DNA of 40,491 nt from Pseudomonadota bacterium (GTDB lineage Bacteria; Pseudomonadota; Gammaproteobacteria; Burkholderiales; Burkholderiaceae_C). Both the position numbers and the translations under genes were made by a program. Every line of letters begins with the position of its first letter. Positions within the stretch are counted from its first letter, which is position 1. The stretch covers positions 1-40,491 of the forward strand of contig JAFEER010000274.1 of the NCBI GenBank assembly GCA_018240985.1, in the 5' to 3' direction. This document shows positions 14,256-27,528 of this stretch, piece after piece. A model generated the notes under the pieces. The model was given only the letters and a program-made list of their open reading frames with translations, was not told the DNA's origin and made no database searches.

Positions 14256-17027
<2,772 letters not shown>

Positions 17028-17120
17028 GCGAGCGAGACCGCGCTGCACTGCCCGAGCAAAGCAGCAAAGCGACCGGAATCCTTGAGATGAATTGAATTCA
17101 GATAGGGCCTGCGCTTCCTA

Positions 17121-17136
17121 TTGCAAGCACTTGCAA
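17121..17136. promoter_or_regulatory. 16-bp perfect palindrome in the secA/dciA divergent gap
   Basis: TTGCAAG-CA-CTTGCAA is a perfect dyad in the 235-base gap between the divergent secA and DciA-like genes. On minus, its second TTGCAA could serve as a -35 box, with TATCTG 16 bases on as a weak -10 for secA. Such an arrangement would let a repressor bind over the -35 box. The regulator is unknown. Confidence 0.35.
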
Positions 17137-17262
17137 CCTGCAAACCGGCCCAAAGCCTGACATTCTACCGTTGCGCCTGCCGCCATCCCCCGCCTGGCAG
17201 GAAAGGGCGCAGCATCCGCAATAATGTCGCTGCGCATGCCCCGCCGTGCGTGCACTCTTGCC

Positions 17263-17562
17263 ATGAACCGCCGCCACTACGCCATCCCATTGCAACAAGC
17301 CAGCCAGGAATCCCCCACGCTGGCGCGGCTCACAGCCCTGACGCGCGACTCCAGCGCCCGACTCAAGGCCATCGAGGGTTTGATTCCGGCCATGCTGCGC
17401 CCCTCCGTGCAGGCCGGCCCCATCGACGGCAACAGCTGGTGCCTGCTGGTGAAAAGCAATGCTGCCGCGGCCAAGCTGCGGCAGCTGCTGCCGGCATTCC
17501 AGGCCCATCTGCGCGTCAAGGGATGGGAGGTGGATTCGATTCGGCTGAAAATTCAGTCCTGA
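17263..17562 (+). CDS. DciA-like protein (DUF721 family)
   Basis: This 99-residue protein resembles the short DUF721/DciA family, whose members help load or handle the replicative helicase DnaB in bacteria that lack DnaC. The segment LKAIEGLIPAMLRPSVQAGP then SWCLLVKSNAAAAKLRQLLP matches the family's pattern of an early helix followed by a strand with W-x-L-x-V and a leucine-rich helix. A position divergent from secA is common for this family in Burkholderiales, as I recall. The start at 17263 is the second plausible ATG; one at 17224 would add 13 arginine-rich residues. No strong ribosome site is visible. The family call is moderate because the protein is short. Confidence 0.65.
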   Translation: MNRRHYAIPLQQASQESPTLARLTALTRDSSARLKAIEGLIPAMLRPSVQAGPIDGNSWCLLVKSNAAAAKLRQLLPAFQAHLRVKGWEVDSIRLKIQS

Positions 17563-17657
17563 GTATGAAGAGGGTGTTGCTGACGCGATTGGCAGCATCT
17601 CGCACGATGCGATAGCGGATGAAATCAAGGACACGCTTGATGGCAAGGCCCGATCAT

Positions 17658-17683
17658 TTCAGGCCACCTGTTCAGGCCACCTG
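17658..17683. repeat. 13-bp perfect tandem duplication over the hsdR stop
   Basis: The unit TTCAGGCCACCTG occurs twice in a row, at 17658-17670 and 17671-17683. On minus, the first-read copy holds the final HsdR codons and the TGA stop; the second copy lies just beyond it. It looks like a replication-slippage event that leaves the protein unchanged. Confidence 0.8.
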
Positions 17684-20600
17684 TTCAACCGCGCCCTGCA
17701 CAGGCTGGCGCAGCTGCCGGTACACCTCCTGCACCAGCAGGCTGGCCAGGCCCTTGAACACCTTTTCGTGGCGCAGCGCCTGGTCAGCCATGGCGTTGTG
17801 GCTCTCCAGCGCATCGACCACGGCAATGTTCAGCTTTTCTTCGTAGGCTCCGTTGGCAAAGGCCTGCACCGTGTCATTGGCCTGCGCCTGCTGCTGCAAG
17901 GTGGGGTCGGCCACCATCTTGCCGATCAAGGTCGTGGCGTAGCCGCGCATATCCGCCTCCGACAGATTGCCCGAGAACACCTGGTTCATCTTCTGAATGA
18001 TGATGGACAGGCGCTCCTGCGGATCGTCCCAGGCCTGCCCGGCACCGCCACCCATGGGTTTGAGCAAGATGGCCTTGCCCTTATCCAGCTCAAGCTGGTG
18101 CTGCTGCTCATTGACTACCTTGTAGCCCGAGAGGCGCACCGATCCATCCAGCGCGTCATCGCCGTCCGCCTTACCCTGCAGGCGCGGCAGCAGCATGCGG
18201 CAAAAGGCGTGCAGGCGCTCCAGGTCGGCATCGCCGTAGCTCACCAGTTGCGACAAAAAGTCGTAGGCGCTGATGAAGGACGACACGTCGCCCCGAAACA
18301 GGTCTTGTACCTCCTTGGGCTGTGCCTTGAAGCGTTCGTGCGCTTTTTTCAGTGGTGCCTGAATGCTCGCCTGCTTGCCCTTGCGGTCAAAAAAACCCTT
18401 GGCAAACGCCAGCACTTCTTCCCACAAGTAAAGGCCTGAGCCGTCGAGCTTGGCGCGTAGCTGATGCACCAGGTTCCTATCGGTGACGCCAGACAGCTGC
18501 GCCGTCCGGTAATAGGGCAAGAAGGCTTTCAGAATGTCCTTGGCCTCGTTGCGAAAATCCAGCACAAAGGTGGTGCTCTTGCCCGGATGGATACGGTTCA
18601 GACGCGAAAGGGTTTGCACCGCCAGCACGCCATCGAGGCGCTTGTCCACATACATGGCGCACAGCTTGGGCTGGTCAAAACCGGTCTGGAATTTGGAGGC
18701 CACGATCAGCACCTGGTAGGCGCTGGTTTCAAACGCCTCCTTGATACCGTCGCCTTGCTCCTTCAGGTCGTTCAGGTCGCCTTCCTTGGCCTTGAGCACC
18801 CTGGATTCCTCATCCGTCACCTCGCCCGAGAACGCCACCAGCGCCCTGCAGTCGGCATAGCCCTGCTGGCGCATGTAGTCGTCCAGCGCCTTTTTGTAGC
18901 GCACCGCCGCCACGCGGCTATCGGTCACCACCATGGCCTTGGCTTGGCCGCCCAGCTGGTGCATCACATGGGTGCGAAAGTGCTCGACGATGACCGCCAC
19001 CTTCTGCGCAATGCTGGTGGGGTGCAGCTGCGCGTAGCGAAACAGCCGCGCAGTAGCCTTGCCTTTCTTGACCGACTTGTCCTCGCCCGCCTGCTCCAGC
19101 TTGAAGGCAAAGTCATACGTCGTGTAGCCGCGCAGCACGTCCAGGATGAAACCCTCTTCAATCGCCTGGCGCATGGAATACACATGAAACGGCGTCGGCG
19201 TGCCGTCTTGCCCCATGCGCCCAAACAGCTCCAGCGTCTTGGGCTTGGGCGTGGCGGTAAAGGCGTAGTACGACACATTGGGTGGACGCTGGCGCGCGGC
19301 CATCAGGGCGTTGATGGCATCCTCCTCGGTCAGGTCGGCATCTTCACGCGCAGCGGCTGCGGCCTCGTCATATGCATCGAATTGCGCCAACTCTGCCCCG
19401 TGCGCCGGTGGCCCGCCCGTGGTCGTCAGCACCTGGCGCAGCTTCACGGCCCCTTTGCCCGCCTGGCTGGAATGCGCCTCGTCCAGAATCAAGGCAAAAC
19501 GCCGCTCGCCCAGCGCGCCCACCTTGCTGAGCACCCACGGAAATTTTTGCAGCGTGGTGATGATGATGAGCTTGCCCTTGTCCAGCGCCTGGGCCAGCTG
19601 GGTGCTGTTGTCGTCAATCTTTTCCACCACGCCATGCTGGTGGTCAAACTGGTAAATCGTGTCCTGCAACTGCGTATCCAGCACGCGCCGATCCGTCACC
19701 ACAATCACGCTGCTGAACACCTTTTGATCCTGCGCATCGTGCAGCGAGGCCAGCCGGTGCGCCAGCCAGCCAATGGTGTTGGACTTGCCCGAACCCGCCG
19801 AATGCTGCACCAGATAGGTTTGGCCCACGCCCTCGGCCAGTGTGGCCGCTACCAGCCGGTTCACCGCATCCCACTGGTGGTAACGCGGAAACAGCAGCGC
19901 CGTTTTGAAAACCTTTTTGCCCTTGGCATCCTGCTCTTCACTCACCTGCGCCGACAAAAACTTGCCCACCACCGCCATCCAGGCATCGGGCTGCAACACC
20001 TCGCGCCACAGGTAGCCCGTGGCGTAGCCTAGTTTGTCATCGGCCGCATTGCCCGCCCCCGCGCCGCCCAGGCCGTCGGGCCGGCCCCGGTTGAAGGGCA
20101 AAAAGCGCGTCGCCTTGCCCGCCAGGCGCGTACTCATGCGCACCTCGTCGCAGCTCACGGCAAAGTGCACCAGCGCCCGCTTGCCAAACGACAGCAGCGG
20201 CTCCGGCTGGCGCGTGGCGGCATCCACCGGCTGACGGTCGTGCTGGTACTGGCGCACCGCGTCTTCAATGTTCTGCGTGGTATCGGTTTTCAGCTCGATG
20301 GTGGCCAGCGGCAGGCCGTTCAAGAACAGCACCAGGTCGATGCACCGCTGGTTGTGCAGCGAGTAATGCAGCTGGCGCACCACGCGCAGGCGGTTTTTTT
20401 GGTAATGCTCCCAGGTCGTGGCGTTTTGCTTGTTGCTGGGCGCAAACTGCGCCATCCTGAAAGTGGCGTTGATGTCCTTGAAGCCCTTGCGCAGCACCTG
20501 CAGCGTGCCCCATAGCTGCGGCTGCTCCTTGCGCAGCGTCGGGCGCTCCATGTCCAGCTCCTGCGCCAGCCGCTCGATGAACACCGCCTCGGGGTTCTTG

Positions 20601-20815
20601 GCGTGGTTCTTGGTGAATTTTTCCCAGGCCTCGGGCTGCGTCTCCTTCACCCAGGCCAGCGCATCCTCGGGGTAGAGCGCCGTGCGCCGGTCGTAGCCCG
20701 CGTCGTAGGCGTAGCCCGGCTGGTAGGGCAGCGGCCCATCCACCCGCCAGCCCTGGGCTTGGAGCGCCGCGCAAATCTCGTCTTCAAACTGGGCTTCGGT
20801 GTGGATGGCGGACAT
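17672..20815 (-). CDS. hsdR: type I restriction enzyme, endonuclease/translocase subunit HsdR
   Basis: The 1047-residue R subunit translocates and cuts unmethylated DNA as part of the HsdR2M2S1 complex. The N-terminal nuclease has the PD-(D/E)xK residues D160, E174 and K176 within the stretch from CIDLVLFLNGLP to TIELKTDT. The motor follows: Walker A SAGSGKSN at 339-346, DEAH at 445-448, motif III FTATPK, and a second RecA fold with FQTGFDQPKLCAMYVDK and QTLSRLNR. A helical C-terminal part for M-subunit contact is present. Everything looks intact. The start at 20815 has GAAAGG five bases upstream. Unlike in classical operons, hsdR is split from hsdM-hsdS by a four-gene plus-strand cassette and must use its own promoter in the 80-base gap shared with rloA. 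Confidence 0.97.
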   Translation of the reverse strand: MSAIHTEAQFEDEICAALQAQGWRVDGPLPYQPGYAYDAGYDRRTALYPEDALAWVKETQPEAWEKFTKNHAKNPEAVFIERLAQELDMERPTLRKEQPQLWGTLQVLRKGFKDINATFRMAQFAPSNKQNATTWEHYQKNRLRVVRQLHYSLHNQRCIDLVLFLNGLPLATIELKTDTTQNIEDAVRQYQHDRQPVDAATRQPEPLLSFGKRALVHFAVSCDEVRMSTRLAGKATRFLPFNRGRPDGLGGAGAGNAADDKLGYATGYLWREVLQPDAWMAVVGKFLSAQVSEEQDAKGKKVFKTALLFPRYHQWDAVNRLVAATLAEGVGQTYLVQHSAGSGKSNTIGWLAHRLASLHDAQDQKVFSSVIVVTDRRVLDTQLQDTIYQFDHQHGVVEKIDDNSTQLAQALDKGKLIIITTLQKFPWVLSKVGALGERRFALILDEAHSSQAGKGAVKLRQVLTTTGGPPAHGAELAQFDAYDEAAAAAREDADLTEEDAINALMAARQRPPNVSYYAFTATPKPKTLELFGRMGQDGTPTPFHVYSMRQAIEEGFILDVLRGYTTYDFAFKLEQAGEDKSVKKGKATARLFRYAQLHPTSIAQKVAVIVEHFRTHVMHQLGGQAKAMVVTDSRVAAVRYKKALDDYMRQQGYADCRALVAFSGEVTDEESRVLKAKEGDLNDLKEQGDGIKEAFETSAYQVLIVASKFQTGFDQPKLCAMYVDKRLDGVLAVQTLSRLNRIHPGKSTTFVLDFRNEAKDILKAFLPYYRTAQLSGVTDRNLVHQLRAKLDGSGLYLWEEVLAFAKGFFDRKGKQASIQAPLKKAHERFKAQPKEVQDLFRGDVSSFISAYDFLSQLVSYGDADLERLHAFCRMLLPRLQGKADGDDALDGSVRLSGYKVVNEQQHQLELDKGKAILLKPMGGGAGQAWDDPQERLSIIIQKMNQVFSGNLSEADMRGYATTLIGKMVADPTLQQQAQANDTVQAFANGAYEEKLNIAVVDALESHNAMADQALRHEKVFKGLASLLVQEVYRQLRQPVQGAVEQVA

Positions 20816-20840
20816 GAAAACCTTTCGCAGATGCATCAAC

Positions 20841-20870
20841 TGCACTTTTTCGCACTTATTGTGCAAAAAT
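20841..20870. promoter_or_regulatory. inverted repeat in the hsdR/rloA divergent gap
   Basis: TTTTTcGCAC, a five-base loop, then GTGCAAAAA forms a dyad with one unpaired C, and a further GCAC lies just before it. It sits 26-55 bases upstream of each start codon in an 80-base gap that must contain both promoters. TTGTGC (20859) could be a -35 for rloA, but no good -10 follows. Most likely it is an operator coupling the two genes; no regulator gene is seen. Confidence 0.35.
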
Positions 20871-20895
20871 GTCGGTGAAATCATAGACCAAAGCC

Positions 20896-22182
20896 ATGCT
20901 CATCGAATTTTCGGTCGCGAACTATCGCTCCATCCTGGGGCGGCAGACCCTGAACTTGACCGCCTCCAGCACCTACAAGGAGTTGGACGATACCAACACC
21001 TTTGCCCCAGAGCCCAAGGGGGAGGCCATGCCCCGCCTGCTGCACGCTGCGGTGCTCTACGGCCCCAACGCCTCGGGCAAGAGCACCCTGATTGAAGCCC
21101 TGCAATTCATGCAGCAGCAAGTCATCCACTCGCAAAAAGACAGCCAGGCCGGGGAGGCCATTGACGTCACGCCCTTCAAACTCACGGCGCAATCGCGCGG
21201 GGCCGACAGTGAATTTGAAATCGTCTTCGTCGAACAAGGCGTGCGCTATGAATATGGGTTTTGCTGCAACCGCGACCGCTTTACGGAAGAATGGCTATTT
21301 GCCTACCCGCTGGGGCGTGCGCAAAAATGGTTTCATCGCGTTTTTGATGCGGAGCAACAAAAATACAAGTACAAATTCAACACCTCATTTCAGGGCGGAA
21401 AGCAGCGCGATGTTTGGGCCGCGCAAACACGCCCGAATGCACTCTTCCTCTCAACCGCTATCCAGCTCAATAACGAACAATTAAAACCCATTTTTCATTG
21501 GTTTCAAGCGCGGCTGCGAGTGCTCAATTCAGTTCAAGGCATACACCCGGGGTACACCTTGCAGCGCTGCAAAAATGAGTCCGACAGAAAAAACATTGTT
21601 CAATTCATGAATGCCGCCGACCTGTCAATTGCCGACATCCAACTGAAAGAAACCCCGTTTCATGCGGATGAACTCCCCAAGGATATGCCCGCCATGATGA
21701 AGCAAGAGTTCATCAAGGAAATGTCTGGAAAAATTTTCCTGGAACCTCTCTTTTTTCATACAGACACGCACACCGAAGAATTCATTGAGTTTCAGGAGCA
21801 AGAAGAATCCGACGGCACCCGTGCGCTCTTCGCCTTTGCTGGCCCTTGGCTAGACGTGCTGGAAAACCAACGAATTTTGGTGGTGGATGAACTAGACTCC
21901 AGCCTACACCCCTTGTTGGTACACCAATTGGTCAAAACGCTGCACCACGCGGGCGCCCAGGCGCAGCTGATTTTCACGACGCATGACACCACCCTGCTCA
22001 GCCAAAAAATTCTGCGCCGCGACCAAGTTTGGTTTATGGAAAAAGATGCGCACAGAGCCACCCAACTCTATCCCCTGTCAGATTTCAGCCCCCGGGAAAA
22101 CGAAGCCATTGAGCGCGGCTACCTCAATGGCCGCTACGGCGCGATTCCCTTTTTGAAGACGCTGGACTTTTATGGGCTCTGA
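20896..22182 (+). CDS. rloA: AAA15-type ATPase, RloA/AbiLi-like
   Basis: This 428-residue ABC/SMC-like ATPase is of the AAA15 (COG1106) class. It begins MLIEFSVANYRSI, has Walker A GPNASGKS at 56-63, Walker B ILVVDELD at 327-334 and the switch histidine in TTHD at 361-364. The middle is an insert typical of this class and is poorer in GC (roughly half, by eye) than flanking genes. Relatives are RloA, from Campylobacter type I restriction loci, and AbiLi; the PARIS ATPase AriA is of the same broad class. In these systems the ATPase senses a phage-derived trigger and controls a nuclease partner. The partner here is rloB, which overlaps its end by 11 bases. The specific symbol is by analogy; the class is firm. 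Confidence 0.85.
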   Translation: MLIEFSVANYRSILGRQTLNLTASSTYKELDDTNTFAPEPKGEAMPRLLHAAVLYGPNASGKSTLIEALQFMQQQVIHSQKDSQAGEAIDVTPFKLTAQSRGADSEFEIVFVEQGVRYEYGFCCNRDRFTEEWLFAYPLGRAQKWFHRVFDAEQQKYKYKFNTSFQGGKQRDVWAAQTRPNALFLSTAIQLNNEQLKPIFHWFQARLRVLNSVQGIHPGYTLQRCKNESDRKNIVQFMNAADLSIADIQLKETPFHADELPKDMPAMMKQEFIKEMSGKIFLEPLFFHTDTHTEEFIEFQEQEESDGTRALFAFAGPWLDVLENQRILVVDELDSSLHPLLVHQLVKTLHHAGAQAQLIFTTHDTTLLSQKILRRDQVWFMEKDAHRATQLYPLSDFSPRENEAIERGYLNGRYGAIPFLKTLDFYGL

Positions 22183-22846
22183 CGACCTGTTTCACAAACG
22201 CAAGGCGCGCAGCAACGCCGCCCTGCAACGCCAGCAAAAGCAACGCGCACAAAACATCCGCTACCTGATCGTCTGCGAAGGCGCAAAAACCGAGCCGTAT
22301 TACTTTCAAGGGCTGCTTGACGACCGGGGCATACGCCCCACCAGCGTGCGCATTGCCTCCAACCAGGGGGCATCACCCGATAGGGTGGTGGAACATGCCC
22401 TGCGCTTGTACGAAGAAGATGCCCACCTAGGCGACCCCTACGATGCCGTGTACTGCGTTTTTGACCGCGACAAACACACCACTTTTGACGCTTCCGTGCA
22501 ACGCACCAAAGATTGCAGCGCTCATGGCAAGCCGCTGATTGCCATTACCTCTACCCCCTGTTTTGAGGTTTGGTTGCTGCTGCACTTTGGCTATTGGGAT
22601 CAGCCTTTTCATGCGGCGGGAAAAAAATCCGTGGGCGACCAAGTGGTGACGCAGTTACGCAAAAAAGCTGGCATGGCGCAATACGGCAAAGGGCAAAAAG
22701 ACGTGTATGCCCAGTTGAAAAATCGCCTAGACAGTGCATTGACGCAGGCCGAACGATTGCGCCAGCATGGCCAGGCCAGTGCCAGCATCAACCCCGCTAC
22801 CGAGGTAGATCAATTGGTGCGGGTACTGCTGACGCTGGGGCGCTGA
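22172..22846 (+). CDS. rloB: RloB-like protein with TOPRIM-type motifs
   Basis: This 224-residue protein resembles RloB/AbiLii. A basic N-terminal stretch precedes YLIVCEGAKTEPYYFQGL (residues 31-48), where E36 sits like the TOPRIM glutamate, then CVFDRDKH (95-102), with D98 and D100 as the TOPRIM D-x-D pair. TSTPCFEVWLLLHF (127-140) is a further RloB hallmark. I infer a metal-dependent nuclease similar in role to the TOPRIM halves of OLD proteins and of PARIS AriB. The ATG at 22172 lies inside rloA (11-base overlap), so the two proteins are probably made in fixed ratio. About 80 bases separate it from vapB, with that operon's own promoter between. Confidence 0.82.
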   Translation: MGSDDLFHKRKARSNAALQRQQKQRAQNIRYLIVCEGAKTEPYYFQGLLDDRGIRPTSVRIASNQGASPDRVVEHALRLYEEDAHLGDPYDAVYCVFDRDKHTTFDASVQRTKDCSAHGKPLIAITSTPCFEVWLLLHFGYWDQPFHAAGKKSVGDQVVTQLRKKAGMAQYGKGQKDVYAQLKNRLDSALTQAERLRQHGQASASINPATEVDQLVRVLLTLGR

Positions 22847-22871
22847 CGGCACCTGCCAGACTGATCGCCTC

Positions 22872-22914
22872 TTGCAGGAGGCCGATCGGGTGGATAATAT
22901 GACCATATAGTCAT
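22872..22914 (+). promoter_or_regulatory. vapBC promoter with overlapping dyad operator
   Basis: A -35 TTGCAG (22872-22877), a 17-base spacer and -10 TAATAT (22895-22900) form a good sigma-70 promoter. The dyad ATGAC-CATATA-GTCAT (22899-22914) overlaps the -10 and the expected start point, the usual place for autorepression by an antitoxin dimer. vapB starts 13 bases past the dyad. The -35 lies within another inverted repeat, GATCGCCTC-ttgca-GAGGCCGATC. Confidence 0.6.
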
Positions 22915-22927
22915 TTTTGAGCACCCC

Positions 22928-23170
22928 ATGATCAACGTCACCGTCGTAGAAGCCAAAAGCCGCTTTTCCGCCCTGTTGGCCGAGGTGGATGCGGGCGCAG
23001 AAATCGACATCACCCGCCACGGCAAGGTGGTGGCGCGGCTGGTACCGGCGCGCCCGCGCATGGCCAGCGAGGCCTTTGCCGATTTTTGGGATGACAGCAC
23101 CGGCTTTGACCTGCAAGCGCCGCCCGACCTGCCTCCCGAAGACGCCCCCGCCTGGGACGCCGCGCAATGA
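22928..23170 (+). CDS. vapB: VapB-type antitoxin (Phd/YefM fold)
   Basis: This 80-residue antitoxin begins with a Phd/YefM DNA-binding region: INVTVVEAKSRFSALLAEV, then ITRHGKVVARLVP. The acidic, tryptophan-containing C-terminal third (SEAFADFWDD and beyond) is the likely toxin-binding tail. Phd-type antitoxins neutralise their partner and repress their own promoter; the dyad just upstream supports this. The start has only a weak ribosome site. The stop overlaps the toxin start as ATGA. It could equally be named phd; I use vapB because the partner is a PIN toxin. Confidence 0.88.
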   Translation: MINVTVVEAKSRFSALLAEVDAGAEIDITRHGKVVARLVPARPRMASEAFADFWDDSTGFDLQAPPDLPPEDAPAWDAAQ

Positions 23171-23586
23171 GCACGCGCTACCTGCTGGACACCAACATCT
23201 TGATTGCCGCACTCAAGGGCGCGCCCAGCGTGCGCCAGCGGCTGGAAACCACGGCCTTGAACGACCTGCTGCTCTCCACCGTGGTGCTGGGCGAGCTGGA
23301 GTTTGGCGCCGAGAAAAGCGCCTGGGCCACGCGTAACCGAGAACGGCTGCAAGCCCTGACCGAGCGCCTGCCGCTGCTGGGCGTGGAGGCCAGCACCGCC
23401 CGGCACTACGGGCAGATTCGCGCGGTGCTGGAGCGCCAGGGCCAGCCCATAGGCGCCAACGATTTGTGGATTGCCGCCCAAGCGCTGGCCGCAGGCGCCA
23501 CGCTGGTGACGGACAACGAGCGTGAGTTTGCCCGCGTGCCGGGGCTGGCGCTGGAAAACTGGCTCAGGGATGCGGTGCCAGAATAA
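23167..23586 (+). CDS. vapC: VapC-type PIN-domain toxin ribonuclease
   Basis: The 139-residue PIN-domain protein carries the complete acidic active site: D8 in LLDTN, E43 in LGELEFG, D99 in ANDLWIAA and D116 in VTDNEREF. VapC toxins cut specific RNAs, often initiator tRNA or rRNA, when their antitoxin is degraded; the target here cannot be read. Nothing is truncated, so the toxin should be active. It overlaps vapB by four bases. A palindromic repeat with a T-rich right flank separates its stop from the stop of the convergent hsdS. Confidence 0.92.
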   Translation: MSTRYLLDTNILIAALKGAPSVRQRLETTALNDLLLSTVVLGELEFGAEKSAWATRNRERLQALTERLPLLGVEASTARHYGQIRAVLERQGQPIGANDLWIAAQALAAGATLVTDNEREFARVPGLALENWLRDAVPE

Positions 23587-23591
23587 GCATG

Positions 23592-23640
23592 AAATAAGCC
23601 TCTAACGCTTGCCGCACAAGCGCAAGCAGCTATTATTTTT
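23592..23640. repeat. palindromic intergenic repeat, copy C
   Basis: CGCTT, spacer gccgcac, AAGCG, with outer flanks AATAAGC and GCTATTATT and a final TTTTT on plus. It lies between the converging ends of vapC and hsdS and overlaps the last hsdS codons. The A- and T-rich flanks would allow it to act as a two-way terminator. Confidence 0.65.
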
Positions 23641-24985
23641 GCTTTGCCGTGCACACATCCACCCGCCCCAGCACGGCATCGGCAATGGTGGCGCTGCGCA
23701 GCTCTTTGAGCAGGGTGATTTCTTCTTGGGTGTGGGTGATGAGGGCGTCAAACGCGGTCAGCTCTGCGCTCAACCCCTGAAGCAGCGCATCACGCTGTGC
23801 TTTGGGCGGCAGTAAAACAGGCAACTCGCGCACGCTGGTTTGGCTGATGGATGCCAGATTGGTGCTTTGCTTGGCGTTGTTCATGAAATAGAACTTGGCG
23901 TATTGCGTTTGCGTAATCGCAGCCAGCCATTCCGATAAATCCCGCTGCTGCGGGCGCACGGCAAATACGTGGTTCTGGTGCAAGCAAGGGGTGATTTCAC
24001 CCGTCCATACCGCGCCGCGCCCCACCTTGTCGTAGTCGCCTCCCTCATTCATCAAAACATCGCCGGCCACCAAGGAAAAACGCTCTACGGCATCCAACTC
24101 CACCGGCATGGTCGCAATTTCACGCAAATCCAAACGGCCTTCCTGCACGTTGGCAACGCGCAAATAGGGTAATTCCACTGTCTGCCTATCGCCTGCATCC
24201 TTGCCCTTGGCCAAGCCGGAGCGCACCTGGGCCAGATGCTTCAAACGCTTGAACTCCCAGCCGTCTGGCAGATGCGGCGCCCACGGATCGCCGGTCGGTT
24301 TTCCGGGCAGATCGTCGCCGGAAATACGTTCGCTGATACGGCTGCCGCGTGCCTCCCGCAGCAAAGCAACCAACTCCTCCTTCTCCCGCACCAGCGTATC
24401 CAGGCGGGCGGTTTCGGTGTCGAGGTAGGCGGCGATGGCTTGTTGTTCGGCCAGGGGTGGCATCGCAATCTGCATGTGCAATATCGTCGATTGCCCAATA
24501 TTCAACATCGAGCTACTAGAGCCTGTTGCTGCCAATTCAATCTGCCCACGCGCCCCAGTAGTACCAAGAAAAAAAGCAATGAATGATGGGCTATAGGCGC
24601 TGTGATCTACGCGCAAACGATATAGCTTGTCGCATAGCATCAGTTTGGGGTAATTTTTCAAAGTAACCGCAGCGCTGCCTACGAGTTCGCGCGTATTTGC
24701 GCGTGAAATCAACAAATCACCGACACTCAGCCCCAATTCTGGAATGGGGTCAAACTCTGTTGGCAATTGTTTGTTTTCTTCCGGTTGAAAAACGCCTCCA
24801 TTGACACAACCCACTTTTAAAACAGCCCATTCATCCTCAGACTGCGCTGGGAACCCTTCGCATTGAGGGCTCCATCCCTGTTCAATGGTGGTGATGAGGT
24901 ATTTGATGCGCTTTACTTCCCAATGCCCCGGCACCTCCCCCAGCCAATCCACCCCCGAAGCCTGGTACTGCGCATACGGCTTCAT
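23633..24985 (-). CDS. hsdS: type I restriction enzyme, specificity subunit HsdS
   Basis: The 450-residue S subunit has two target-recognition domains and sets the bipartite DNA sequence read by the Hsd complex. It opens with VDWLGEVPGHWEVKRIK and has a first domain at about 30-165. A conserved spacer helix follows (MPPLAEQQAIAAYLDTETARLDTLV, 177-200 region), then a second domain from DGWEFKRLKHL, and a final helix (LLPPKAQRDALLQGL onward). The first domain lies in DNA near 45 percent GC by eye at 24480-24860, against 60 percent or more around it, as expected of a swapped domain. The start overlaps the hsdM stop by four bases. The 3' end converges on vapC. Confidence 0.95.
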   Translation of the reverse strand: MKPYAQYQASGVDWLGEVPGHWEVKRIKYLITTIEQGWSPQCEGFPAQSEDEWAVLKVGCVNGGVFQPEENKQLPTEFDPIPELGLSVGDLLISRANTRELVGSAAVTLKNYPKLMLCDKLYRLRVDHSAYSPSFIAFFLGTTGARGQIELAATGSSSSMLNIGQSTILHMQIAMPPLAEQQAIAAYLDTETARLDTLVREKEELVALLREARGSRISERISGDDLPGKPTGDPWAPHLPDGWEFKRLKHLAQVRSGLAKGKDAGDRQTVELPYLRVANVQEGRLDLREIATMPVELDAVERFSLVAGDVLMNEGGDYDKVGRGAVWTGEITPCLHQNHVFAVRPQQRDLSEWLAAITQTQYAKFYFMNNAKQSTNLASISQTSVRELPVLLPPKAQRDALLQGLSAELTAFDALITHTQEEITLLKELRSATIADAVLGRVDVCTAKQK

Positions 24986-27069
24986 GCCTGCTCCTCACCC
25001 TGAATGCCACGCAGCAGTTCCATAAAGCGCTGCTCTTTGGCCTGGATATCGGCCGCAATCTCGGCGCGGCTGCGTGGGCTTTGATAGCGGTAGAACTCGC
25101 GGTTGAAGTTGATTTCGGTGCCGACCACGCCGGTGTGGCCGTCTTGGGCGTCGCGCACTTCGTGGTTGATCCAGGCGTCGGGCCAGTGCGGCGCCACTTC
25201 GCGGGCAAAGTAGGCTGCAATGTCCTCGCCATAGGGCACGTATTCGGCGTCGCGCAATTCAGAATCGCTCAGGGTTTGGCCTTTTTCATTCGTCGTTGGC
25301 GCGGCGCTTGGGTCTTTGACGCCCAGGCAGACGCGGGCACGTTCCACGGCCTTGCTGCTGAGTTGGGCGGCCTTGCCGGTCAGCCCCTGTGCTTTGGCTA
25401 TGGCGGCGGCGGATGCGTGCAGCGCGGTGCGAAAGCTCTCGGCATCAAGGTAGGTGGCCTGCCCGTTCATGGCGTGCAGCGCCTGGGTGAGCAGGTGTTG
25501 CTGCTCTTGCGGCAGTTTTTGAAAGGCGGTGTCCCAGCCCAGCTGCTTCAAGCCTTGTTCGCTGACCGCAAAACGCGTGCGCAAGGGGCGCTCTATGGTC
25601 ACGCGGCGGTAGAAGAAATGTTCGCGCGCCAACACCTTGGCTTGGAGCACGCGCCCGGTTTTGCCGCTGCGGCTGTGTTCGTCGGCGGGGTTTTCGTACC
25701 ACTGCATGGTTTGAAAATCCGCATAGGCCTGGGCGATGCGCTGCAGGCAGTCGGGCGTGAACTCGCGGCGCTTTTTACCCAGGTTTTTCTTCATCAGCAC
25801 GCTCATGGCGCTGGCGTCGATCAGCAGCACCTGGCCCCGGCGCTCGGGCGGTTTGCGGTTGCTCATGAACCACAGGTAGGTGGTGATGTTGGTGTTGTAG
25901 AACATGTCCGTGGGCAGGGCCACGATGCAGTCCAGGTAGTCGCTCTCCAGAATGTGGCGGCGAATTTCGCTCTCGCCGCTGCCCGCGTCGCCGGTGAACA
26001 GGGGCGAGCCGTTGTGGACGACGCCCACGCGGCCCCCGCCGCGTTGCTCGTTCTGGCCATCGCCCTTGCCACCAATGACCGGCGCCATCTTGGACAGCAG
26101 GTGCAGCATGAACAGCATTTGCCCGTCGCGAATGGCGGGCAGCCCCGGCCCAAAGCGCCCGGCCGCACCTTTGGCATGTTCGCGCCTGACTGCCGCTTCG
26201 GCGGGCTTCCATTCCACGCCGTAGGGCGGGTTGGCGGCCTGGTAGTCGAAGGTTTTGCCCGGGTGCATGTCCAGCGCCAGGGTGTCGCCGTTTTGAATGT
26301 CCGCCGGGTTTTGCCCGCGAATCAGCATGTCGGCCTTGCAGATGGCGTAGGTTTCGTCTTCCAGCTCCTGGCCGAACAGGCGCAGCGTGGCGGCGCTGTT
26401 GAAGCTGCGCAGTTGCTCTTCGGCCACGCTCAAGATGCCGCCGGTGCCCGCTGTCGGGTCGTACATGGTGCGGATGGTGCCGGGCACGGCCAGCGCGGGC
26501 TGGTCGCCGTCAAACAGCAAGGTCACCATCAGCTCGATGACGTCGCGCGGGGTGTATTGCTCGCCGGCGGGCGATACGTCGTTGAACTTGCGCAGCAGCT
26601 CTTCAAACGCCTGGCCCATGTCGTGGTTGCTGACGGCCTCGGGCGACAAATCGGTTTCGGCAAAGCGCTGGACTACCAGGTAGAGGCGGTTTTTCTCGGC
26701 CAGCTTGTCCAGGGTGGCGGCAAAGCCGAACTTCTCGAAGATGTCGCGCACGTTCTGCGAGAAGCCGTTGATGAGCGCTTCCAGGTTGTCGCGCACGTCG
26801 TCGGGCGTCTGGGCAATGCCGGGCAGGGTGAAGCGCGCGGTGTTGAAGAAGGGATAGCCGCTGACGGGGGTGAGCAGCTTGTCGAGGTCGTAGCCCTTGC
26901 TGCGAATGGCTTCGTACTTGGCCAGCACCGCGCCGCGCGTGGGTTCCAGCACACAATCCAAACGGCGCAAGATGGTGAAGGGCAGGATGACCTTGCGGTA
27001 TTCGTTTTCTTTGTACGCGCCGCGCAGCAGCTCGGCGTTTTTCCAGATCAGGTCAGCGAGTTTGGACAT
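24982..27069 (-). CDS. hsdM: type I restriction enzyme, DNA adenine methyltransferase subunit HsdM
   Basis: This 695-residue M subunit methylates adenine at N6 using S-adenosylmethionine. The N-terminal helical domain begins SKLADLIWKNAELLRGAYKE. The SAM pocket is DPTAGTGG at 204-211 and the catalytic motif is NPPY at 280-283. The segment DMFYNTNITTYLWFMSNRK is another family hallmark. It is longer than the classical EcoKI subunit (about 530) owing to an extended C-terminal region, which ends with YRYQSPRSRAEIAADIQAKE. The start at 27069 fits the family although no good ribosome site precedes it. It is the first gene of the hsdM-hsdS unit and lies about 380 bases from tRNA-Thr. Confidence 0.97.
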   Translation of the reverse strand: MSKLADLIWKNAELLRGAYKENEYRKVILPFTILRRLDCVLEPTRGAVLAKYEAIRSKGYDLDKLLTPVSGYPFFNTARFTLPGIAQTPDDVRDNLEALINGFSQNVRDIFEKFGFAATLDKLAEKNRLYLVVQRFAETDLSPEAVSNHDMGQAFEELLRKFNDVSPAGEQYTPRDVIELMVTLLFDGDQPALAVPGTIRTMYDPTAGTGGILSVAEEQLRSFNSAATLRLFGQELEDETYAICKADMLIRGQNPADIQNGDTLALDMHPGKTFDYQAANPPYGVEWKPAEAAVRREHAKGAAGRFGPGLPAIRDGQMLFMLHLLSKMAPVIGGKGDGQNEQRGGGRVGVVHNGSPLFTGDAGSGESEIRRHILESDYLDCIVALPTDMFYNTNITTYLWFMSNRKPPERRGQVLLIDASAMSVLMKKNLGKKRREFTPDCLQRIAQAYADFQTMQWYENPADEHSRSGKTGRVLQAKVLAREHFFYRRVTIERPLRTRFAVSEQGLKQLGWDTAFQKLPQEQQHLLTQALHAMNGQATYLDAESFRTALHASAAAIAKAQGLTGKAAQLSSKAVERARVCLGVKDPSAAPTTNEKGQTLSDSELRDAEYVPYGEDIAAYFAREVAPHWPDAWINHEVRDAQDGHTGVVGTEINFNREFYRYQSPRSRAEIAADIQAKEQRFMELLRGIQGEEQA

Positions 27070-27404
27070 GCAGGGGGGAGTGAAGGCAGGTGTTGCTCTC
27101 TGGCCGCAGCCAAGACGGCGGCGCGTGGGAGGTATGCGCCTGAGGTTAGCCGATCAACAATGCGGGTATGCCACAAGCCTGATTTCCGTGCGCACCGACC
27201 TGCGTCCGGCGAACATACTTTTTCTCTGGCGTCCAGGTGGCATTTCGGCACTACGCATCGATCAGCATGGCATCCCTCGGTGTAGTTGTTCCCCGGCAAC
27301 CGCCGCAAAAGCAGCTTTGTTCCCCGATGTGTGCCCCACTCACGGCCTGGCTGCAAACGGTTATTCTTGTACGCCATTGCCCTTTAAGTCGCTGATTTAC
27401 CAAT
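27070..27404. other. gap between hsdM and the tRNA-Thr terminator, no recognised gene
   Basis: A short open frame on minus could be translated here, but its Cys- and His-rich sequence matches nothing I know and has no ribosome site. It is most likely chance. The hsdM promoter must lie here, but I see no clear boxes. I see no integrase remnant and no repeat of the tRNA 3' end. Confidence 0.4.
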
Positions 27405-27441
27405 GAAAAAGGCCCCGAGGTGGTCATACCTGAGGGCCTTT
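27405..27441 (-). terminator. Rho-independent terminator after tRNA-Thr
   Basis: On minus, AAAGGCCC, a loop of about 18 bases with some internal pairing, then GGGGCCTTTTT. It begins 12 bases past the tRNA CCA end and closes the tRNA transcript before the restriction locus. Confidence 0.75.
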
Positions 27442-27452
27442 GTTTGAGTGAC

Positions 27453-27528
27453 TGGTGCCGGTTGTCGGATTCGAACTGACGACCTACCGCTTACAAGGCG
27501 GGTGCTCTACCAACTGAGCTAAACCGGC
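27453..27528 (-). tRNA. tRNA-Thr (anticodon TGT)
   Basis: This 76-base tRNA has a complete cloverleaf. The acceptor stem GCCGGTT pairs with AACCGGC, the D arm is GCTC...GAGC, the anticodon loop CTTGTAA has TGT reading ACA and related threonine codons, the T arm contains TTCGAAT, and CCA is encoded. A -10-like TAGAAT at 27538-27543 lies about 10 bases upstream on minus, with no good -35. tRNA genes are frequent landing sites for islands, and the restriction locus starts just downstream of its 3' end, but I see no duplicated tRNA tail on the far side. Confidence 0.96.

Follow-up and report, generated by a model that had tools for sequence, protein, structure and literature searches.

What does a two-gene module of an ATPase and a predicted nuclease do in the middle of a type I restriction-modification (R-M) locus: does it guard the restriction enzyme, or does it act on its own? 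The question is raised by a 40,491-nucleotide stretch of contig JAFEER010000274.1 from a Pseudomonadota bacterium of the Burkholderiaceae_C (the whole stretch is termed the window). In it, rloA, encoding an AbiLi-like ABC-type ATPase of 428 aa (20896..22182, + strand), is followed by rloB, encoding an AbiLii-like predicted TOPRIM nuclease of 224 aa (22172..22846, +), and the two open reading frames (ORFs) overlap by 11 nt (22172..22182, +). An earlier examination of the letters by a model (the sequence-only reading) had described these ORFs and their overlap, which were reproduced exactly, and had placed the pair inside a type I restriction locus; Pfam agrees, with hsdR on one side (HSDR_N) and hsdS and hsdM on the other (Methylase_S, N6_Mtase, and HsdM_N). 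It had also proposed a guard that fires when phages inhibit the restriction enzyme. We conclude that the pair (RloAB) is probably an AbiL-type (RloA/RloB) two-gene abortive-infection module, i.e., a known kind of system behind a sound observation.

Conservation and pairing of RloA and RloB

Both proteins match the PADLOC AbiL models (AbiLi, 4.5e-95, for RloA; AbiLii, 2.3e-26, for RloB) in the same gene order, and the suspected kinship with AbiL is thereby supported. The best Pfam model for RloA was AAA_21 (1.4e-40), and the best match in a phmmer search of the PDB was PtuA (9.6e-7). The AAA_15 match was barely above the cut-off (34.0 vs 32.1 bits); thus, of the earlier designation "AAA15 ATPase", the ABC-type ATPase stands but the label is loose. 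The intact Walker A, Walker B, and switch histidine that had been described for the ATPase were found throughout the family: over 168 RloAs, Walker A G56/N58/G61/K62, the signature S305/G307, Walker B D331/E332, and H363 each have a conservation of 1.00 (rounded), and the C-terminal residues Y409..G412..P418 form a block that hardly varies.

RloB matches PF13707 (RloB; 1.2e-34) with 120.7 bits against a cut-off of 31.5. Its conservation was assessed in alignment A2, in which the window protein is joined by 112 non-redundant rows out of 126, the other 14 having been omitted for long or uncertain starts; alignment A1 omits locus L007, which has ambiguous bases. Residues E36, Y44, D98, F131, E132, W134, H138, and Y171 are invariant in 113/113 RloBs, and position 100 is D in 110/113 and E in 3/113, so the E36 and D98-x-D100 residues singled out from one smaller protein hold across its relatives.

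In 194 of 195 judgeable loci, RloB is immediately preceded by a co-directional RloA (80/80 from genomes, 56/56 viral, and 58/59 from a second sample), the exception (L245) having no RloA. The total is drawn from 80 genome, 59 viral, and 60 second-sample loci, four of which end too soon; the genome and second samples share 3 loci, and some duplicates occur within samples. The genome loci are the top 80 among 502 confirmed stretches and are biased to close kin, and the second sample (L217-L276) was hand-picked among strong matches. Among earlier, shorter loci outside the 195 (L002-L027), adjacency was seen in 21/26: L022 has no RloA match within 1.4 kb, L023 and L024 are truncated by the end of the contig, and in L025 and L027 RloA is present but no RloB ORF exceeds the threshold. 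The pairing is not by chance. The exact 11-nt overlap recurs in L028-L034, and in the window it suggests that rloA and rloB may be translationally coupled. Counts of rloB in genomes were 27/274, 54/398, and 43/399 (overlapping draws, weak matches included), or roughly a tenth of those sampled. A viral scan with RloA alone gave no matches.

Predicted fold of RloB and proposed action of the pair

A TOPRIM fold is probable for RloB. AlphaFold2 (AF2), supplied with the 113-row alignment, returned a model with a predicted local distance difference test (pLDDT) score of 92.2 and a predicted template modeling (pTM) score of 0.85, with lower values for the first 30 residues; a single-sequence prediction (pLDDT 51) was set aside. 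The predicted order is b-a-b-a-b-a-b, with strands 31-35, 59-63, 92-98, and 122-128 alternating with helices, so the structure prediction that had been recommended for the smaller protein gave a confident, TOPRIM-like result. In a TOPRIM domain a glutamate follows the first strand and a DxD motif ends the third; in the model, E36 is placed just past strand 31-35, and D98/D100 where strand 92-98 ends. When the RloB core was compared by hhalign with ten OLD-like TOPRIM cores (taken from PF20469 loci; 10/12 OLD-TOPRIM loci used), the score was 23.7 (P 9.4e-4), as opposed to ≤17.1 (P ≥0.014) for ten decoy slices of the methylase and HsdR alignments. The default alignment spans the first motif only; forced longer, it brings E36 and D98xD onto the OLD motifs. 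A published HHpred analysis likewise relates the RloB node D44 to OLD_TOPRIM (PMC10440598).

The module that we favor would operate as follows. RloA, an ABC-type ATPase, would oligomerize and keep the RloB nuclease inactive until a phage product, or a change caused by the phage, acts on RloA; RloB, in this scheme a two-metal TOPRIM nuclease, would then be set free or activated and would cut a nucleic acid essential to the cell, which would halt before phage production. This scheme builds on the gene pairing, the conserved catalytic residues, the TOPRIM-like topology, and the company of very different R-M families that we observed. RNA, perhaps tRNA, is an evenly balanced candidate for the substrate; it is plausible because AriB of PARIS, itself controlled by an ATPase, is a two-metal tRNase whose E26A mutant lacks cleavage (PMC12409363). 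Relatives also behave as toxins: AbiLii of F. nucleatum is toxic in E. coli (PMC3985639), and the C. algidicarnis D44:AAA pair is counted among those validated in toxicity-neutralization assays (PMC10440598).

The literature searched (open-licence papers only) yielded neither a trigger nor a substrate of RloB.

Several points weigh against the favored scheme. We are aware of no phage assay for the window pair. In published work, the L. lactis AbiLii was non-toxic in E. coli and the F. nucleatum AbiLi failed to neutralize its own AbiLii (PMC3985639); AF2 gave no convincing interface for such toxin:AAA pairs, and a phage screen of an AAA-neutralized pair from A. guerrae, with a different toxin, had no hits (PMC10440598). 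As to the fold, the HH-suite probability for the TOPRIM cores was just 22%, and the whole-sequence comparison of RloB with OLD gave P 0.012 and a probability of 4%. Foldseek of the RloB model against the PDB found nothing at E ≤0.001; designed cages and lumazine synthases topped the ranking, in which the OLD C-terminal domain was 36th (E 0.03). In BFVD, the sole Foldseek match at E ≤0.001 was another RloB-like protein. The profile of alignment A2 found no nuclease in the PDB except a weak RNase P protein (E >1), its remaining matches being helical designs and unrelated proteins; phmmer of RloB against the PDB gave nothing sensible. The TOPRIM-type partner of the sequence-only reading is thus backed by the AF2 topology, the motif placement, and the core profile, but not by the whole-length comparison or by a significant Foldseek match to a TOPRIM protein.

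Among known systems, AbiL (AbiLi/AbiLii) of Lactococcus shares both families, the gene order, and the PADLOC models with the window pair, which differs in being chromosomal, in lying in an R-M slot beside a Phd-VapC toxin-antitoxin (TA) pair, and in having an activity that is only predicted. PARIS (AriA/AriB) also joins an ABC-type ATPase to a separate TOPRIM nuclease, and RloA matches the PADLOC AriA model (8.5e-40); unlike RloAB, PARIS has a known trigger and a known tRNA substrate. Membership in PARIS, which the sequence-only reading had suggested checking with defense models, was rejected because PF13707 is the only Pfam match of RloB at E ≤0.01, with no DUF4435 (PF14491). Genome G000 has no PF14491 match, and DUF4435 proteins occurred in 2/94 genomes, too few to compare. 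The OLD nucleases (P2 Old, Gabija) follow the same ATPase and TOPRIM logic (PMC12409363), and RloAB takes the old/tin slot of a P2-like phage, but OLD is one chain and RloAB two, and an invariant FE.W...H block and C-terminal helices are peculiar to RloB; with the ATPase and RloB on two ORFs, membership in single-chain OLD was rejected. Septu (PtuAB), another pair of an AAA ATPase and a nuclease, has an HNH nuclease in place of RloB, and was rejected because Pfam shows no HNH in RloB at E ≤0.01.

Certain short ORFs (~168-190 aa) in several genomes of the order match the RloB profile over no more than its first ~110-145 positions, with E ~1e-5 to 1e-9 (for example, G877:C2:2592-2993). Judged from these partial matches, they are possibly a separate TOPRIM family.

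RloAB within and outside restriction loci

Besides the window, hsd genes lie near RloAB in 6/80 genome loci (L028, L033, L048, L052, L053, and L085) and in 1/60 of the second sample (L240); counting only loci with ≥4 kb on either side, RloAB is embedded in 4/39 and 1/40, respectively. The hidden Markov models (HMMs) used in the search derive from 20 methylase proteins, 30 HsdR proteins, and proteins of the window, so distant hsd genes may be missed. Not counted as embedded were L037 (methylase, 37.8 bits), L072 and L086 (HsdR model, 17.4 bits), and L237 (methylase about 7 kb off, on the other strand). RloAB occupies the hsdS-hsdR gap or immediately precedes hsdR in each of the 8 R-M-linked cases; in L053 and L085 hsdR is visible, hsdS is not in view, and a TA pair precedes RloAB. 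The genes are co-directional with hsd in L028, L033, L048, L053, L085, and L240, and opposite in the window and L052. Co-expression with hsd is likely in L085, where rloB and hsdR overlap by 4 nt, and in L048, where the order is M-S-(macro)-A-B-R, all on one strand.

The HsdR partners vary greatly. L048 and L052 share 79% identity in RloA and 26% in HsdR, and the window and L028 share 75% in RloA with an HsdR match limited to a 45-aa stretch at 40%; in the pairs L048/L053 and L028/L033 both RloA and HsdR are alike. On an RloA tree (FastTree, 168 rows, with long-branch warnings), the embedded label requires 7 changes, a count that cannot separate gains from losses; at least 5 of them are forced by starred branches. 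Shuffled labels gave a mean of 7.9 changes, with 52/500 as low as 7, and 6 changes were needed among the 100 rows with enough flank. R-M embedding is therefore scattered over the tree, at about the level of shuffled labels.

These data bear directly on whether RloAB is a dedicated guard resembling PrrC, held in check by contact with HsdR, HsdS, or HsdM and freed when a phage inhibitor disturbs the enzyme. The uniform position in the 8 linked loci, the gene arrangements of L085 and L048, and the scattered embedding with its forced changes all suit such a guard. Closely related RloAs beside very different HsdRs, however, speak against a guard in contact with the R-M enzyme. In addition, most RloAB loci have no hsd gene nearby, rloAB runs divergently from the hsd genes in the window and L052, the slot houses many unrelated cargoes, and the stretches read of a P2-like phage and of a 5-kb plasmid list RloAB but no hsd gene. 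We regard a contact guard as very unlikely. What endures of the sequence-only proposal is the recurring hsdS-hsdR place; the firing on inhibition of the enzyme is a candidate role, and a dedicated guard fits poorly with the few hsd-linked loci and with 75-79% identical RloAs beside such different HsdRs. The R-M locus is a genuine home of RloAB, but not its sole one. With related RloABs beside very different HsdRs, in the same place each time, the old guard question becomes directly testable.

PrrC, RloC, and DarTG2 offer a parallel, being translation- or growth-blocking cargo of type I hsd loci, although their effector domains are unrelated to RloAB. PrrC is regulated by its own R-M enzyme, whereas for RloAB such control is only a candidate. 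RloC is itself mostly unlinked, with 8/72 in a type I or III R-M locus (PMC2610378).

RloAB is autonomous and mobile. In Klebsiella phage ST13-OXA48phi12.1 it lies between a replication endonuclease and a portal gene, and the 10.7-kb gene list around it includes a DNA adenine methylase and no hsd gene. The replication-portal site of P2 is a defense hotspot that holds old and tin, and phages of this type carry many unrelated defense genes there (PMC9122126). P2-type portal or replication genes occur within 5 kb of RloAB in 9/59 viral loci and in L104, whose RloB is the same as that of L147. The gene table of plasmid pUUH239.1 (L347, 5.2 kb), which is incomplete, lists three mobilization genes and one short hypothetical gene besides the pair, and no hsd gene. 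Close kin of the window pair (L030, L031, L032, and L034) lie among ORFs that, judged by eye, appear to be housekeeping genes.

Plasmid pUUH239.1 is a small ColRNAI-type mobilizable plasmid, and its RloA-RloB pair is divergent. It was the one examined among Klebsiella and Escherichia plasmid records with matches (26 and 17, respectively), which list others of ~5 kb. On an Agrobacterium plasmid (L348, 3676-8740), the next gene after RloAB, less than 30 nt or so away, encodes an N-6 DNA methylase (3.1 kb), and a recombinase gene comes after it. In L036 (4505-18141) RloAB lies amid genes for a helicase (NOV_C; 1358 aa), a DUF1156 protein (982 aa), and a HEPN_Swt1/DUF499 protein (1124 aa), the called rloA ORF overlapping the helicase ORF by 4 nt. 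RloAB thus also accompanies other modification or defense genes.

Both the repeated R-M company and the phage and plasmid homes would be accounted for if RloA, as in PARIS, directly recognized anti-restriction proteins (DNA mimics such as Ocr), with no need of R-M contact. The AriA match points the same way, and PARIS is an Ocr-triggered system of ATPase and TOPRIM logic (PMC9122126). Such direct sensing would be compatible with all our observations; we nonetheless consider it possible rather than probable. RloB is not a DUF4435 protein, and we know of no RloAB trigger. Nor does the company kept by RloAB prove anything, since the P2-type slot carries many unrelated defense genes (PMC9122126).

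The hsdS-hsdR slot was surveyed in kin of the window HsdR, of which 40 of the 48 other HsdR matches listed were fetched. In 38/40 of these loci hsdS lies upstream of hsdR, and 27/38 gaps exceed 400 bp. The gaps hold 48 ORFs of ≥90 aa, including Schlafen/AlbA_2, DUF4357, GmrSD, HepT, Phd, RhuM, macro, and FRG (25/30 families listed); a search for RloB in the 40 loci gave no match. RloAB is a portable cassette, and the slot that it occupies is one for cargo in general. DarTG2 between hsdS and hsdR has already been published (PMC12255303).

Two other pairs were observed in hsdS-hsdR slots whose HsdRs are kin of that in the window: a Septu-like AAA_21+HNH pair (L288, 10486-12488, +) and an AAA_15+DUF3226 pair with motifs VEGRDD and VDADD (L311, 4152-5953, -). 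With RloA-RloB, these are the modules behind a tentative and rather doubtful generalization, that the gap may be a second-line slot for interchangeable ATPase-nuclease suicide modules, often with a TA pair, that answer phage anti-restriction proteins. If so, the type I locus as a whole would be restriction plus a failure alarm.

TA-type neighbors of embedded RloAB are Phd-VapC in the window, nucleotidyltransferase-HepT in L028, HTH-HipA in L033, DarT-macro in L053, and HigB-HTH in L085; L048 has a lone macro gene, and no TA-type gene was recognized in the L052 and L240 slots. This company, with the toxin/neutralizer behavior of the C. algidicarnis relative (PMC10440598), would suit plain addiction cargo that stabilizes the island, with Phd-VapC as a second pair and phage defense incidental. 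We think this improbable: the P2 hotspot placement and the strictly conserved ATPase site speak for a regulated activity. The TA queries, moreover, were derived from embedded loci, and TA families also flank non-embedded ones (RelE 2, MqsA 2, and YhaV 1 among 123 flanking ORFs of 42 loci; 25/146 families listed), and we therefore claim no TA enrichment. In L053 (787-8731) and L048 (3875-14697), hsdR is followed by a gene for a YgjP-like metallopeptidase; these loci resemble the published restriction-DarTG-M48 island of enteropathogenic E. coli (EPEC), with RloAB added.

Layout and probable acquisition of the island in the window

In the window, rloAB is divergent from hsdR and is followed by Phd/YefM-VapC on the + strand and then by hsdS and hsdM on the - strand. 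The slot host hsdR (17672..20884, -) encodes the type I restriction subunit (HSDR_N, 2.2e-19; SWI2_SNF2); its TIGR00348 match, 182 bits, is below the model cut-off. Alignment of HsdR N termini indicates that the true start is likely 20815, which would leave a divergent gap of about 80 nt before rloA (20816..20895). Scans of this gap for sigma-70-like promoters, terminators, and inverted repeats were all empty; a further scan gave one weak promoter-like site at 23609-23636. The extra slot cargo consists of a Phd/YefM antitoxin (22928..23170, +; PF02604, 2.2e-8; TIGR01552) and a VapC-like PIN toxin (23167..23586, +; PIN, 5.1e-20), the latter scoring 133.7 bits, just below the cut-off of 140, with NF047863, the NCBI model for tRNA-fMet-specific VapC. 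Next come the specificity subunit gene hsdS (23633..24985, -; Methylase_S and PADLOC Specificity_I) and the methyltransferase gene hsdM (24982..27069, -; N6_Mtase, 2.2e-51, and HsdM_N).

These genes form a 9.9-kb R-M island (17563..27452) between a 112-aa ORF (17224-17562) and a tRNA-Thr(TGT) gene, which it abuts (region 17563-27528). The island is absent in three relatives, the best SecA matches among 29 other genomes: in these genomes, one from the same genus and two from other genera, just 30-106 bp separate the equivalent of the 112-aa ORF from the tRNA-Thr gene that comes after it. Acquisition beside the tRNA-Thr gene is, from this comparison of gene order, the best explanation for the island. 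A search of 16000-19000 for repeats (≥12 nt) of the tRNA-Thr region found none, which leaves an att site unproven, and Pfam revealed no recombinase among the scanned window proteins. The G+C contents of rloA (0.53) and rloB (0.57) are lower than that of the window (0.65); that of the Phd/YefM-VapC region (22928-23586), 0.67, is higher than that of rloAB, and the TA pair may therefore have arrived separately.

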